In this document: one piece after another, positions 5,573 through 11,572 of the stretch
Position numbering within the stretch: the stretch's first letter is position 1
Layout: every line of letters begins with the position of its first letter
DNA from: Flavobacteriales bacterium
GTDB lineage: Bacteria > Bacteroidota > Bacteroidia > NS11-12g > UBA955
NCBI GenBank assembly: GCA_002737705.1
Contig: NSIM01000014.1
Coordinates: 1 to 41,978 of the forward strand
DNA: 41,978 nt
Reading direction: 5' to 3'
The notes under the pieces: model-generated
Told to the model about the DNA's origin: nothing
Databases searched by the model: none
The model's input: only the letters and a program-made list of their open reading frames with translations
Program-made: the position numbers and the translations under genes

Positions 5573-7270
5573 TTATTTTCCTCCCGCCTTTATGCCCCTA
5601 CAAGTATTAATACCTGCCGCCGTTGCGGCTTTAATATCTTTATCAGTGTCTAATTGTTTTTTTATCTCCACATTAGCAGGGTCAAGCTCAAGGGCGAAAA
5701 GGAAATAAGATTTTGAGCAAGCAAAATTTCTTCTGACATAGTGATAGCCGGCTAGATATTTTGTTGCAATCAACAAATCTTTTTTGTTTTTATCTTTATC
5801 TTTTATTGCTAGCTCAAAATAAGTTTCGTAAAATATACGAGTGCTATCGAACTTAATTTCAGGATCAGAGGCTTGGTTTACGCGACCGCGCCAATACCAG
5901 CCAAGGAGATTTGTAGAGTCAATTAATGTAATTTTTTTAAAGGAAATGTCGGCATTTGAATAATCTTTTTGGTAGAACAACGCTTTGCCATACGCACTCC
6001 AATCGTAAACACTAGCAATAGCAGGATTTAAATCAATTTTCTTTTTGTAATAAACAGCAGCACGATCATACTTTTTCATTTTATAATACGAAGTTGCAAT
6101 GTCAAAATAAATATCTTTTCTTGCAGTGTCAATAGCAAGCGCGTTGTTATAGTCGACGATTGCAATAGAGTCCTGTGAATTTTTTGAAAAAGCTTTTCCT
6201 CGTCCGATAAAATCATCGGCAATAATTGCCGGTGCTCCCGATTTTTTTTGTTCAATAAAAAACAAATTGAAATACTCAATTGCTAAAAGAGGTTCTGGCG
6301 TTTTTTCTTCTAGGTAACAGCGTGCGATGATTCTATAGATTACAGTTGTTGAATTGTCCTTGGCAAGGGAAATTTTTCCCTGCGCAATCGCTTCGCTATG
6401 GTTACCACTTTTGTAAAGAAATACACAATAACGGTAGCGCGAAGTTGCGTCATCGTTTAGCCGTAAATAATTTGCCATTGATTTTTGTGCAGAATCAAAA
6501 CGTTGAATTTGGTATTGCGCTTCTCCCTTAAGTCGCCAAGCGGGGGCAAAAGAGGAGTCTGTTTTAATCGCGACATTATAAAAACCAATTGCCGAAGCCA
6601 TGTTTTTACCATTCATATATACTTGTCCAATTCTAACATTTGCCCGACAAGATTTTGGATCAAGCTTAGCAGCGACATTGTAATTTGTGATTGCGGGCGT
6701 TCCGTTTACAGGATCTTTTTTATATAGCGCATCTCCGCGAATTAAAAAAACTTCAGGGTTGGACGGGCTGAGCTTTTCGCTTTCAATTGTTAAGTTAATA
6801 GCGTCATCATAATTTGTTATTGCACCCCACGTTTCTGTTACTGCTATTTCTAAATATATTTGCACCTGTCGCTCTTTCTCCATATTCATCCCCTTTTTTC
6901 CCTCTTGTGTTTTAACAACTGATTTTGCGTAAGCAATTGCTTTTTGGCCATCTGCTCCATTGCCGGTGTATAAATAATACCTTGCCAATCCAACGTGTGT
7001 TAATGCGTTAGTTGGATTAATATCAATTCCGCGCTGAAATAAAAATTTAGCAGAATCAAGATTTTCCATCTTAAGCATTAGATCGCCGTAGTAGAAAAAA
7101 TTATCCCCATCCATAGGGTTTTTTGTGACAAGTACTTTAAAAACACTACGCGCCTTTTCATATTGTTCGTTCGCTACTAGTTTTCTTGCGTCTCCTAAGT
7201 TTTGTGAATTAACGTTAGTAGTTGAGACTAAAAAAAGTAAAAGGCAGATAATTTTTAGATAAATTTTCAT
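5573..7270 (-). CDS. periplasmic TPR-repeat protein
   Basis: This is a 565-residue protein with an N-terminal signal peptide (MKIYLKIICLLLFLVSTTNV, then NSQ) and about ten tetratricopeptide repeats over most of its length, for example DNFFYYGDLMLKMENLDSAK, APAWRLKGEAQYQIQRFDSA and DIYFDIATSYYKMKKYDRAA. TPRs mediate protein contacts; no enzyme motif is visible. The start is set at the ATG at 7270 because it begins a good signal peptide, and longer in-frame extensions would run into the upstream gene. It is the last gene of the operon exbB-exbD-exbD-tonB-small membrane protein-PstS-like, 31 bases after the PstS-like gene. This suggests a periplasmic scaffold or partner for the TonB complex or the PstS-like lipoprotein, but that role is inferred from context only. 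Transcription ends at the hairpin at 5505-5545. Confidence 0.88.
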   Translation of the reverse strand: MKIYLKIICLLLFLVSTTNVNSQNLGDARKLVANEQYEKARSVFKVLVTKNPMDGDNFFYYGDLMLKMENLDSAKFLFQRGIDINPTNALTHVGLARYYLYTGNGADGQKAIAYAKSVVKTQEGKKGMNMEKERQVQIYLEIAVTETWGAITNYDDAINLTIESEKLSPSNPEVFLIRGDALYKKDPVNGTPAITNYNVAAKLDPKSCRANVRIGQVYMNGKNMASAIGFYNVAIKTDSSFAPAWRLKGEAQYQIQRFDSAQKSMANYLRLNDDATSRYRYCVFLYKSGNHSEAIAQGKISLAKDNSTTVIYRIIARCYLEEKTPEPLLAIEYFNLFFIEQKKSGAPAIIADDFIGRGKAFSKNSQDSIAIVDYNNALAIDTARKDIYFDIATSYYKMKKYDRAAVYYKKKIDLNPAIASVYDWSAYGKALFYQKDYSNADISFKKITLIDSTNLLGWYWRGRVNQASDPEIKFDSTRIFYETYFELAIKDKDKNKKDLLIATKYLAGYHYVRRNFACSKSYFLFALELDPANVEIKKQLDTDKDIKAATAAGINTCRGIKAGGK

Positions 7271-7301
7271 ATTGCAAATGTATAAATAGACAAGGCTACT
7301 A

Positions 7302-8237
7302 CTACTTAACTGTGATTTTAACTTTTCTTTCGGCGGGCTTAGCTGGAACCAGCCCCGAACGTTGAACAATTAGCTGGCCCCTCTCTCCTAATGAAAAAGA
7401 GGCAAACCCCGTGCCAAGCCCCGCCCTTTTTCCTATTTTAATGAGCCAAACACCTCTGGAAAAAGGATAATTGCCAGTAGCTATATTGCTTTGATTTGGC
7501 AGAAATAATTCCGAGGCACTTTTTCCTACCGCACAAAAATTAATTTTTTCTCTTCGCGCAACATCTTCTTCGTTGTCTTTGTCGCCAACCCAATTTAACC
7601 CAACAACGCCAATTGTATTTTTGGACGCTGCGACATATTTTACAACGCTGTCATTTGTTGATAACGCAAAACAATTTTTGCCAACAGCGCCACCTCCCAA
7701 TAGTGTGTCGGCGAGGTAACGAAGATTTGAAGAAGATTCATTGTCAAAAACAATATTGATTCGTCCTAACTTTGACTCTGCGCGAATTTGACTCCATAAA
7801 GAATCCTCTCCAGAAATAATTTTTCTGATTTGGCTAATTGTAAAAGCAGAATCGGGATTATTTTTATTTACTAAAAACACCACAGCATCCGAACCTATTT
7901 TTAGTTGCTCAACAATATATTTTTGCGCCTCAAAAAAAAGGGACTCTTTTACGCTTAGCCTTCTGGTCATAATCGCCAAACGCGACGAATCGTTGTACAG
8001 TTCTTGTACTACATTTTTTTCTGGGGAGTAGGATTCTATTAAAAACGCGGCAGGGTACGAGCTTTCAAAAGCATCAACCAACGCATCGGCAAGCGAGCGA
8101 ACGTTTTCATCCACAGCCACAGAAATCTTGCCGGTTGTTGGCGTGTCAATCTCTTTAGAAATAATTTTACTCCCGTCACAGGAAGGAAAAATAAAAAAAT
8201 AAAAAATGAAAGAAAACAAAATCGAATTAATCTTCAT
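7302..8237 (-). CDS. PstS-like substrate-binding lipoprotein
   Basis: This 311-residue protein resembles the PstS family of phosphate-binding proteins (periplasmic binding protein, PBP-like 2 fold). Segments typical of the family include ISVAVDENVRSLADALVDAF, RLAIMTRRLS, GSDAVVFLVNKNNPDSAFTISQIRKI.SGE and the SSSNLRYLADTLLGG region. A signal peptide ends at FPSC with Cys20, so it is probably lipidated. A complete phosphate importer would also need PstC, PstA and PstB, and none are in this window. The gene sits in the TonB operon and its ATG overlaps the last 11 bases of the small membrane-protein gene upstream, suggesting translational coupling. It may bind a small anion and act together with TonB or the TPR protein downstream, but the ligand is unknown. 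Confidence 0.82.
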   Translation of the reverse strand: MKINSILFSFIFYFFIFPSCDGSKIISKEIDTPTTGKISVAVDENVRSLADALVDAFESSYPAAFLIESYSPEKNVVQELYNDSSRLAIMTRRLSVKESLFFEAQKYIVEQLKIGSDAVVFLVNKNNPDSAFTISQIRKIISGEDSLWSQIRAESKLGRINIVFDNESSSNLRYLADTLLGGGAVGKNCFALSTNDSVVKYVAASKNTIGVVGLNWVGDKDNEEDVARREKINFCAVGKSASELFLPNQSNIATGNYPFSRGVWLIKIGKRAGLGTGFASFSLGERGQLIVQRSGLVPAKPAERKVKITVK

Positions 8238-8457
8238 TTTCTGATTTTATTTTTTTGTATCGTAACCATATCGAAGCACCACGAAAACAAGCCCAAGCCC
8301 CGAGTAAAAGTCCAATATAAGTACGGTTTGGTTTGGGATAGCGGTCCGACAAGAGCTCAGTAAAAAGAAAAAGAAAAGCAATTCCAAGAAAAACACAAAT
8401 CATTATTATGGAAAAGCCAAGACTAATTTTTTCTCGGAAAGAAAAAGAGTTTTTCAA
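8227..8457 (-). CDS. small two-segment membrane protein in the TonB operon
   Basis: This 76-residue protein has two predicted membrane helices (about residues 13-32 and 46-63), joined by a short loop with RYPKPNRTY and ending in a charged tail (RYKKIKSENED). The reading frame has no ATG at its start. The best start is TTG at 8457, 13 bases after the end of tonB. An internal ATG at codon 19 would remove part of helix 1. Its 3' end overlaps the start of the PstS-like gene by 11 bases, so it is embedded in the operon. No known function is recognised. Its position suggests an accessory to the TonB-ExbBD complex or to the lipoprotein that follows. Confidence 0.7.
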   Translation of the reverse strand: MKNSFSFREKISLGFSIIMICVFLGIAFLFLFTELLSDRYPKPNRTYIGLLLGAWACFRGASIWLRYKKIKSENED

Positions 8458-8470
8458 CGTTAAAACTTTT

Positions 8471-9244
8471 CTATTGAAGCGTAAATCTAACAGGCTGAGT
8501 GATTTCGATTCTCACGGGATGTCCGTTCATCATTCCTGGTGTCCATTTTGGCATCAGAGATATTACTCGTATAGCTTCTTTTGTAAAGCCAGGGGCACCC
8601 GCAACTTCTTTTGCCGCCTTGACATTTGCGATTGTGCCATCCTTTTCTACAACAAAAGAAATATAAACAGTCCCTTGCTTTCCCTGATCTTTTTCTGCGA
8701 AGGGATATCTTACATTTTTTTTAAGATAGGCCTGAAATCCATCTTTTCCGGAAAAATCAGGCATAACCTCTGCGAAAGTAAAAATTTCTTCTACCACTTG
8801 CTCAACAGCAACATCTACAACAGGAGGCCCCTCTTCTTCTTCGCCCTCTTGATTTACAATTCCAATTTTTTTTGTTGTGTCGTTTTGTAATGGAGGATCC
8901 ACCTCTTTTTCAGTAATTTCAGGTGTTGTAAATTTGAGCACTTTTGTTAATGGCGGCGGTGGTGGTGGCGGTGGCGGTGGTGGTGGTGCGTCTTTGTTTA
9001 CAGGCGGGGCGTCTTTTAAATTAACCTGTGTTATTTTTTCTTTTTTTACTTGTTCAACAGACTCCCTGCTTATGAAAACAAAAAAGAAGATTAAGAAAAT
9101 GAAACCAATTGTAGCAGACCCGCCCGCAATAGCAACAACCTTCCCGTAATCGCGGCGAATTAAAAAAGCGCCATAATTACGATTACGATTTTCGAAAACC
9201 ATATCGTTCCGCTCTTTTGTTATTTCGTTACTCCAGTTTGCCAT
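8471..9244 (-). CDS. tonB: TonB family energy transducer
   Basis: TonB carries the energy of the inner-membrane ion gradient, harvested by ExbB-ExbD, to TonB-dependent receptors in the outer membrane. This 257-residue protein has the Bacteroidota layout: an N-terminal cytoplasmic stretch (ITKERNDMVFENRNRNYGAF), one membrane helix at ~37-58, a Pro-rich periplasmic linker with twelve consecutive prolines (residues 87-98) and Glu-rich segments, then the C-terminal TonB domain (~170-257). That domain includes FQAYLKKNVRYPFAEKDQGK, GTVYISFVVEKDGTI and MPKWTPGMMNGHPV. It lies 18 bases downstream of exbD and is clearly in the same operon. Confidence 0.95.
   Translation of the reverse strand: MANWSNEITKERNDMVFENRNRNYGAFLIRRDYGKVVAIAGGSATIGFIFLIFFFVFISRESVEQVKKEKITQVNLKDAPPVNKDAPPPPPPPPPPPPLTKVLKFTTPEITEKEVDPPLQNDTTKKIGIVNQEGEEEEGPPVVDVAVEQVVEEIFTFAEVMPDFSGKDGFQAYLKKNVRYPFAEKDQGKQGTVYISFVVEKDGTIANVKAAKEVAGAPGFTKEAIRVISLMPKWTPGMMNGHPVRIEITQPVRFTLQ
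8951..8986 (-). repeat. polyproline codon tract (12 CCN codons) in tonB
   Basis: Thirty-six bases consist only of CCA and CCG codons on the minus strand, encoding twelve prolines in the periplasmic linker of TonB. Twelve prolines in a row normally need elongation factor P for translation. The repetitive DNA could vary in length between strains. Confidence 0.9.
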
Positions 9245-9262
9245 TTTATTGGTATTAAGAGT

Positions 9263-9949
9263 TTATTGATTTGTAATTACAGCATCAGGATCTGGAGTGT
9301 CCAGCTCTTTATATCGTATTCCTGTTTTTGCAGAAAGGGCAGTTAGCTCTAGGCGCGTAATAGGTGTGAGAGCATACTTTTCAACATCAGAGATTTTTAA
9401 TTCATCAATGATATTAATAATGTCCCCGTACTTTGCATCTCCACCCCACTTAACAATAAAGAATGGCGATGATTTAATAAACTTTTCTTGTATCTTAATT
9501 TTTTCTTTTCTAAAAACAACTTCAGAGAGCTGGTTTTTTTTGTAGCGAGCTCTTAAGTCTTTCATCTCTGCAATAATTGGAGAGTTACGCCCTGTTGCAT
9601 AGCTACGAAAACCCTTTTTAGGGTCAAGTGTTGTCGACTGTAATACAGCATTTTCATCTAGCTTGCCCTCATAATAATATATGTTTCCGCCCTTGTTTCC
9701 GTCTAAAAGTAATGTAACTGCCGTTTTATCATTGATTTTGGTTGTGTTGGTGTCTTTCACATCTTTCGGCATTTTAATCTCCATCGTTTTGGACTTGTTT
9801 AAATTTGAAGTCAATACGAAAAAGGTTAGCAAAAGAAAAGCCAAATCAACCATTGGTGTCATGTCTACACGAGGATTTCCTCCGAGTTTCTTTCGGCCCT
9901 TTTTCCCGTGTTTCCCGCCACCTCCTTGGTCTTGTTGAATTTCTGACAT
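9263..9949 (-). CDS. exbD: ExbD biopolymer transporter, first paralogue next to tonB
   Basis: ExbD forms the rotor-like partner of the ExbB channel. This 228-residue copy has a Gly/Lys-rich cytoplasmic N-terminus (GGGGKHGKKGRKK) and the hallmark VDMTPMVDLAFLLLTFFVLT. Asp35 within the membrane helix is the expected proton-accepting residue. The periplasmic domain is longer than in enterobacterial ExbD (about 140 residues) and carries a KYGDIINIIDELK segment typical of the family C-terminus. It lies 18 bases upstream of tonB and 100 bases downstream of the second exbD. Two differing exbD genes next to one exbB are common in Bacteroidota. Confidence 0.94.
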   Translation of the reverse strand: MSEIQQDQGGGGKHGKKGRKKLGGNPRVDMTPMVDLAFLLLTFFVLTSNLNKSKTMEIKMPKDVKDTNTTKINDKTAVTLLLDGNKGGNIYYYEGKLDENAVLQSTTLDPKKGFRSYATGRNSPIIAEMKDLRARYKKNQLSEVVFRKEKIKIQEKFIKSSPFFIVKWGGDAKYGDIINIIDELKISDVEKYALTPITRLELTALSAKTGIRYKELDTPDPDAVITNQ

Positions 9950-10049: not shown

Positions 10050-10733
10050 TTATTTTGTTGGCGCAGCATTAGGATCACCCTCTAATGCTGTAATTAAATT
10101 AAAAGTAAAAACCTCCTGTTTTTTAAAAAGTGCAATTACGGCGTCCACTTTCTTGTAAGACGCTTTTCCGTCTGCTTTAATTGCATAGCGCAAGTCCTCA
10201 ACAGGTTTCCCTGCGGCGCGCATTTGCATTCGCACTCTGTATTCCTCTTCACGCGCGAAACGTATCCACGCCGAGAGTTCGGCATCACGTTTTTTTCCTG
10301 TGGCGTCTATCGTGTCAATAGGCATACCTTTAGATTCGCGATTCATTAAATCACGCTGAGTTTGTTCAGCATTTATAAATTCTGGAAGCCGAGCAAAATT
10401 ATCTCCAAAGGATTGCAAAGAACCAAACTTTATGATTTCTTCTTCAGAAAATTTAACCGTTGGGTATTGAGTCATCATACTTCTTAGCATGTTGATCCTA
10501 ACTTCTTTTCCTTCCATATTAAAGAATACACGTCCAACGGTATCAATAGTGATAAGCATTGTGTTTTTTGGAAGTATGATATCCGAAACCGAACTTGGCG
10601 TGTCAACAATAACAGGTTCTGGCGCACGCATGGTGGCAGTAAGCATAAAGAAAGTTACCAATAGGAAAGCAAGGTCAACCATTGGAGTCATATCCAAGGA
10701 AGGGCTGTGGCTTGCGGCTTTTATTTTAGGCAT
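10050..10733 (-). CDS. exbD: ExbD biopolymer transporter, second paralogue
   Basis: This 227-residue ExbD paralogue has the motif LDMTPMVDLAFLLVTFFMLT, with Asp20 as the key membrane aspartate. The periplasmic domain includes PKNTMLITIDTVGRVFFNMEG and ends in a family-typical region (ALEGDPNAAPTK). Between residues ~110 and 175 there is a charged insertion (NRESKGMPIDTIDATGKK then SAWIRFAREEEYRVRMQMRA) that the first ExbD lacks in this form. The two ExbDs may form a heteromer with ExbB, or serve different TonB loads. The gene lies 38 bases after exbB. Confidence 0.93.
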   Translation of the reverse strand: MPKIKAASHSPSLDMTPMVDLAFLLVTFFMLTATMRAPEPVIVDTPSSVSDIILPKNTMLITIDTVGRVFFNMEGKEVRINMLRSMMTQYPTVKFSEEEIIKFGSLQSFGDNFARLPEFINAEQTQRDLMNRESKGMPIDTIDATGKKRDAELSAWIRFAREEEYRVRMQMRAAGKPVEDLRYAIKADGKASYKKVDAVIALFKKQEVFTFNLITALEGDPNAAPTK

Positions 10734-10771: not shown

Positions 10772-11572
10772 TTAGTGCTTTTTAGAAGCAATTGTTTGCA
10801 GAATACTGAAATTAGCCTCGTCAATTCCGTAAGTGATGCGGTCGATTTGAGTGGTAAAAACATTAAAGGCAACAATAGCTAGACAAGAACCTGCAATACC
10901 GATAAATGTATTTACAAGCGCCTCAGAAATACCCGTTGCAAGAGCGTTGGAGTCAGGAGCACCGGCGTTAGCAAGCGCAGCAAATGAACGAATCATTCCC
11001 ATTACAGTTCCAATCAAACCAATCAAAGTAGAGATAGAAGCGCAGGTAGATAAGATAACAAGGTTTTTTGATAACATAGGCAGCTCAAGCGAGGTTGATT
11101 CCTCTAAATCTTTTTGAACTGCAGCAATTTTTTGCTCTTTGTCCATTGTTTTATCTTCTGCAACAAGCTTGTATTTTTCTAGACCAGCAAGCACAACATT
11201 TCCAATAGACCCTTTTTGACGCTCGCAAGCGGTCATCGCCTCATCAATATTACCAGCAGCAACGAGTTCGCGTATGGAACGAACAAAGTCTGTAATGTTT
11301 CCAGAGCCCTTTGCCTTCATGATTGTGATCATGCGTTCAATCGCAAAAGTGATTACCAAAAGAACAATTGTTATTAAAATAGGAACGATAAAACCTCCCT
11401 TATAAACAGTTCCGAAAATATCAATTGGGTGCCCTTTTTCATTATTGCCGCCTTCAAAATGGGACCCATCACCAAGTACAAATAAGTAAATTAAGATTGA
11501 GATAAAAAGTTCTATTACCATCATCCCGACGGTGAAGTAGGCCTGTAAATTTGAGGTTTTTTTGCTGCTCAT
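10772..11572 (-). CDS. exbB: ExbB/TolQ/MotA-family proton channel
   Basis: This 266-residue protein is the channel subunit of the TonB energising complex. It has a hydrophobic N-terminal helix (~15-33), a second helix (GGFIVPILITIVLLVITFAI, ~59-79), a cytoplasmic segment with the ERMITIMKAKG and NIDEAMTACERQ pattern, and two C-terminal helices. The first of those contains STLIGLIGTVMGMIRSFAALA and the second contains GISEALVNTFIGIAGSCLAI, which are signature MotA_ExbB segments. It is the first gene of the operon running exbB-exbD-exbD-tonB and on to the PstS-like and TPR genes. The 220 bases upstream, up to dedA, probably hold the promoter. Confidence 0.95.
   Translation of the reverse strand: MSSKKTSNLQAYFTVGMMVIELFISILIYLFVLGDGSHFEGGNNEKGHPIDIFGTVYKGGFIVPILITIVLLVITFAIERMITIMKAKGSGNITDFVRSIRELVAAGNIDEAMTACERQKGSIGNVVLAGLEKYKLVAEDKTMDKEQKIAAVQKDLEESTSLELPMLSKNLVILSTCASISTLIGLIGTVMGMIRSFAALANAGAPDSNALATGISEALVNTFIGIAGSCLAIVAFNVFTTQIDRITYGIDEANFSILQTIASKKH

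Follow-up and report, generated by a model that had tools for sequence, protein, structure and literature searches.

In the window, by which we mean the whole stretch of 41,978 nt analysed here, a PstS-like lipoprotein gene stands in a Ton operon together with two further genes, and these three genes form a cassette that recurs in the phylum. The operon is on the minus strand in the order exbB-exbD-exbD-tonB-[2-TM]-[PstS-like lipoprotein]-[TPR]. As an interpretation which we judge to be about evenly poised between right and wrong, we propose that the cassette encoding the 2-TM protein, the lipoprotein (referred to as PBP in the following) and the TPR protein belongs to the ExbB-ExbD-TonB machine as an accessory module, and that the PBP comes from phosphate-binder stock and serves no ABC importer. 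For the uptake of glycans, heme and siderophores, Bacteroidota rely on transporters that are driven by TonB, and a conserved, unstudied cassette in a Ton operon would offer a direct handle on the sharing of TonB among many receptors. Among the papers searched, one, on Riemerella, mentions the adjacency of tonB and an SBP gene.

Organisation of the operon and properties of the cassette proteins

The position of a PstS-type lipoprotein gene between tonB and a TPR gene, as given in the initial annotation, was confirmed by the ORF and Pfam analyses. The following features were assigned:

10772..11572, minus strand: exbB, encoding the MotA/TolQ/ExbB proton channel and opening the operon; PF01618, E 1.4e-29
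10050..10733, minus strand: exbD, copy 1; PF02472, E 1.8e-18
9263..9949, minus strand: exbD, copy 2; PF02472, E 1.4e-16
8471..9244, minus strand: tonB, proline-rich, with C-terminal TonB domain; PF03544, E 3.8e-17
8227..8457, minus strand: 2-TM protein of 76 aa, TTG start; ORF, number of TM segments probable
7302..8237, minus strand: PstS-like (PBP_like_2) lipoprotein of 311 aa; PF12849, E 6.6e-25
5573..7270, minus strand: TPR protein of 565 aa, all-TPR, with signal peptide; TPR Pfam matches

The Ton system genes exbB, exbD and tonB are thus found together in one operon and encode the expected domains. From exbB to the TPR gene, the intergenic gaps are 38, 100, 18, 13, -11 and 31 nt, the negative value reflecting the start of the PBP gene, which overlaps the 2-TM ORF by 11 nt in a different frame. 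The short gaps and this overlap make a single transcription unit likely. For the TPR gene we took the ATG at 7270, located 31 nt past the PBP stop, as the start, and not the TTG at 7369 of the mechanical ORF. Upstream of exbB, Pfam detects a DedA-like (VTT) gene. A scan of the window with Rfam yielded no match.

The small membrane-protein gene had been noticed merely because of its overlap with the PBP gene; the overlap is real, yet the gene is more than that, namely the conserved third member of the cassette. A sliding-window analysis of its product reveals one strong hydrophobic stretch, and the family alignment (A3) leads us to infer a second TM stretch. Arg59, which is part of the motif YG.FR..R, is invariant over 33 sequences. 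Comparison with Pfam and NCBIfam gave weak, scattered matches and no convincing family. The PBP has a signal-peptide-like N-terminus followed by a Cys at residue 20 that is kept in at least 90% of its relatives, and therefore the designation as a lipoprotein is reasonable. For the TPR protein, AF2 predicts a superhelix (pLDDT 93.1, pTM 0.83), and a fold search with this model retrieved generic TPR matches. The solved structure 3u4t from Cytophaga hutchinsonii (Q11TI6) matches residues 272-535 of the window TPR protein in one stretch (31% identity, E 3e-27), and may, judging from this similarity, be a cassette TPR protein.

The genome to which the window belongs harbours a second, solo cassette (L051, contig C45:16000-34000, locus 6614-9546) in a neighbourhood free of tonB and exb genes. 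It encodes a 2-TM protein of 63 aa, a PBP of 369 aa (the mechanical start making it too long) and a TPR protein of 581 aa. The second-copy PBP is highly diverged, with an end branch of 2.13. The same genome also has a second tonB operon, on contig C11, which is without a cassette.

Conservation of the cassette and its linkage to tonB

The PBP was used as a query against 296 genomes of the phylum and gave matches in 199 of them, canonical PstS proteins at weak scores included. Around strong and weak matches 40 loci were fetched, the own genome being excluded. At 28 of these loci the PBP gene is directly preceded by tonB and/or exbBD, and in all 28 a TPR gene follows downstream; tonB adjacency of the PBP gene thus exceeds chance. 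Four loci added later (L118-L121) have the same operon, L118 ending at a contig edge before the TPR gene, while L117 contains a lone PBP gene. Conservation of the gene order over Bacteroidota, which was proposed as a check of the initial annotation, is borne out by these loci, since the tonB-linked ones come from 17 other families of the phylum. Two of the loci show two tonB-like genes in tandem ahead of the cassette (L034, 5892-7763; L062, 9095-10692).

The three cassette genes are tightly associated with each other. In the first set, a TPR-type gene follows the PBP gene at each of the 36 cassette loci from outside the own genome, counting L043, whose TPR neighbour is similar in length and could be aligned but was missed by a single-sequence search. 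With a 2-TM profile built from these loci themselves, the 2-TM gene was detected directly upstream of the PBP gene at 37 of 42 loci (window and own second copy counted); the others are L036, where the gap between tonB and the PBP gene is 2 nt, and four loci with other PBPs. It is also present between tonB and the PBP gene in L118-L121, which are outside the set used for building the profile (39-69 bits). The four other-PBP loci (L064, L070, L072 and L073) do not contain the cassette. In two of them, the PBP_like_2 lipoprotein genes adjoin genes for GGDEF (diguanylate cyclase) proteins (L073, 8046-10233; L070, 2861-6226), which suggests a use of PBPs as sensors.

At eight loci (L035, L043, L046, L048, L050, L052, L056 and L057; five from family f3, two from f19 and one from f35) the cassette is found away from tonB. 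There the 2-TM and TPR partners accompany the PBP gene, and the genomes possess a plain exbB-exbD-exbD-tonB operon elsewhere, which has no cassette. Adjacency to tonB is therefore not needed. At the f3 loci L043, L048, L050 and L056, the cassette immediately precedes nuo-like (NADH dehydrogenase) genes and shares their orientation; for L048 only, the identity of nuoA was established by Pfam. Moreover, a profile search of 20 complete genomes, which had been picked for having no PBP match, revealed no full-length PBP family member. Thus, the cassette is not core to every Ton system.

These observations raise doubt about an accessory role at the TonB complex, since the cassette is viable away from tonB and the 20 genomes searched with the profile have no full-length family member. 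The cassette could instead be an autonomous envelope module that works as a sensor or scaffold, is physically independent of TonB and shares the tonB operon only for the sake of co-expression. The tonB-free loci (four of the five in f3 being located beside nuo-like genes), the tonB operons that stand alone in the same eight genomes, the solo second copy in the own genome and the negative search of the complete genomes are all in line with such a module. However, linkage to tonB or exbBD at 28 of 40 loci and at four more, in 17 families, is more than would be expected from chance or loose co-expression. We consider an autonomous module to be a real but clearly less probable possibility.

Relationship of the PBP to PstS

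The AF2 model of the PBP (pLDDT 92.5) has the PstS fold. Its best VIA-align Z score, 28.6, was obtained with 4omb and 4q8r, and the best four structure matches have Z scores of 26-29 and rmsd values of 1.9-2.3 A over 239-260 residues. Against the NCBI PstS model TIGR02136, the PBP scores 70.3 bits and thus remains below the cut-off of 206.6 bits. Among eight PstC-adjacent PstS controls seven pass this cut-off (256-287 bits) and the remaining one reaches 186 bits. Both kinds of protein occur in genome G122, with 271 bits for the PstC-adjacent and 46 bits for the TonB-linked protein.

The residues of the binding site were compared in a joint alignment of 42 cassette proteins and 13 PstC-adjacent PstS proteins of the phylum. 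Gly at positions 72 and 74, belonging to a GGGSGTG-type loop, is present in 13/13 PstC-adjacent proteins, while the loop is found in none of the cassette proteins. The same is true for Arg at position 165 (12/13 versus 0/42), a position that corresponds to E. coli R135, an arginine of the phosphate signature; here 23 of the 42 cassette proteins have Asp. R92 and S169 are retained in 38 and 34 cassette proteins, respectively. An acid at position 44 was also considered as a breaker of the phosphate site, and was dropped because the PstC-adjacent PstS proteins of the phylum carry Asp there as well (GSDT). In a tree calculated by a quick method, the group with the cassette proteins, which includes some non-cassette PBPs, is split from PstC-adjacent PstS with an SH-aLRT of 100.

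The failed cut-off, the loss of the phosphate signature and the split in the tree show that, at the level of sequence, the PBP does not qualify as a PstS in the features tested, while its predicted fold marks it as PstS-derived. After loss of the signature, tight binding of phosphate appears unlikely. Phosphate could still be bound, since at least one solved protein named phosphate-binding protein, 4jwo, is also devoid of an R135 equivalent according to the alignment.

The initial annotation described the PBP as an orphan because pstC, pstA and pstB are absent from the window, and this extends to the whole genome (G000, 1.92 Mb), in which no match to PstC (TIGR02138) was found. Only two BPD_transp_1 permeases are encoded there, on separate contigs. 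The one match to the PstA model is below the cut-off and corresponds to a permease with a dipeptide-permease-type N-domain match. Two PHO4/PiT transporters are present. PstC exceeds the cut-off in 25 of 36 cassette genomes and is below it or without a match in 11. From those checked among these 11, five complete genomes (G041, G257, G281, G150 and G115) lack PstC and have the cassette PBP as their sole PBP_like_2 protein. We rejected the correlation between cassette and PstC (25/36 with versus 0/20 without the cassette) as evidence, because the 20 cassette-less genomes were chosen for having no PBP match and are therefore biased against canonical PstS.

A single counter-example to the separation from PstCAB was found. 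In L061 (G180:C73, 2903-10595), tonB-2TM-PBP-TPR directly follow pstC-pstA-pstB and a gene for a YkuD L,D-transpeptidase, and the fetched stretch contains no exbB. This arrangement, the nearest solved folds, which are phosphate-binding proteins, the retained R92 and S169 loop and the frequency of PstC in cassette genomes would fit a PBP that is a working binder of phosphate or another oxyanion and feeds a Pst importer or concentrates periplasmic phosphate. We hold this to be improbable, since the glycine-rich loop and the R135 equivalent are lost in all 42 cassette proteins, that of L061 included, and G180 has on another contig (C113) a much better PBP_like_2 match. The own genome, with its two PiT-type transporters and no PstC, and the five genomes with a sole PBP_like_2 protein also argue against it. 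Service to a PstCAB importer as its main binding protein was to count against the initial annotation. As far as can be judged from sequence, the PBP does not resemble such a protein: the bit score is low, the signature is lost, and PstC is missing from the own genome.

Possible function and comparison with known systems

The interpretation that we favour remains that the cassette assists the ExbB-ExbD-TonB machine as an accessory module. It is suggested by the overlapping or closely spaced genes and the operon order in 17 families, by the trio staying joined away from tonB (the own copy at C45 included), by the PstS fold being kept while the signature is lost 42/42 with a tree split at SH-aLRT 100, and by the presence of the PBP without PstC in the own and five other genomes. 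By analogy, TtpD2, the TPR protein of the Vibrio TonB2 system, may serve as a precedent (PMC6957404). In such a module, the TPR superhelix would hold the PBP in the periplasm, and the 2-TM protein would tie the PBP-TPR pair to the inner-membrane ExbBD-TonB complex. The trio could then regulate, stabilise or position TonB or its receptors, and the remodelled cleft of the PBP (R92, S169, D165) might hold a small ligand. That the PBP supplies or detects a ligand for transport driven by TonB, as suggested with the initial annotation, remains conjectural, the phosphate signature being lost. A bolder version, which is speculative and in our opinion rather unlikely, is that a solute-binding fold now serves the TonB motor, either as one of its subunits or as a regulator gated by a ligand, the TPR protein being the scaffold and the 2-TM protein the anchor. 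If true, many Bacteroidota would have an extended Ton system, the activity of which is set by a periplasmic ligand.

With PstS/PtsS_2 (TIGR02136; PDB 4gd5, 4q8r, 4omb) the window PBP has in common the predicted fold over the whole length, the lipoprotein nature, R92 and the S169 loop. It differs by the lack of the GGGSGTG-type loop, of the R135 equivalent and of a genomic PstCAB partner, and by its position with tonB, 2-TM and TPR genes.

The layout also resembles Tol-Pal (TolQRA, TolB, Pal, CpoB), where motor and transducer are likewise combined with a lipoprotein and a periplasmic TPR protein, and recognisable tol-pal loci are missing from Bacteroidetes (PMC12204202). A Tol-Pal-like envelope machine with an order as in tolQ-tolR-tolA-(tolB)-pal-cpoB is nevertheless very improbable, since the transducer is of the TonB type with a typical TonB_C domain and a poly-proline spacer, the operon has no tolB gene and no Pal lipoprotein with an OmpA-like peptidoglycan-binding domain (the PBP-fold protein being the only lipoprotein between tonB and the TPR gene), the tethering role has been proposed for PorE instead (PMC12204202), and R. 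anatipestifer tonB2, which has a similar neighbour, works in hemin uptake (PMC4446302).

In the open-access papers searched we found no study of the PBP function or of the three-gene unit, which is weak as evidence of absence. In the R. anatipestifer exbB-exbD-exbD-tonB2 locus an SBP gene adjoins tonB, a likeness based on the published description; this downstream gene was merely noted, with no function given (PMC4446302). Among the Ttp proteins (TtpB/TtpC/TtpD) of Vibrio TonB2 no PBP-fold component is reported, and the TPR proteins are likened by type alone. Like the window operon, however, the Vibrio TonB2 operon contains genes beyond the usual Ton set, among them one for a TPR protein, TtpD2, which is essential and required for uptake (PMC6957404).
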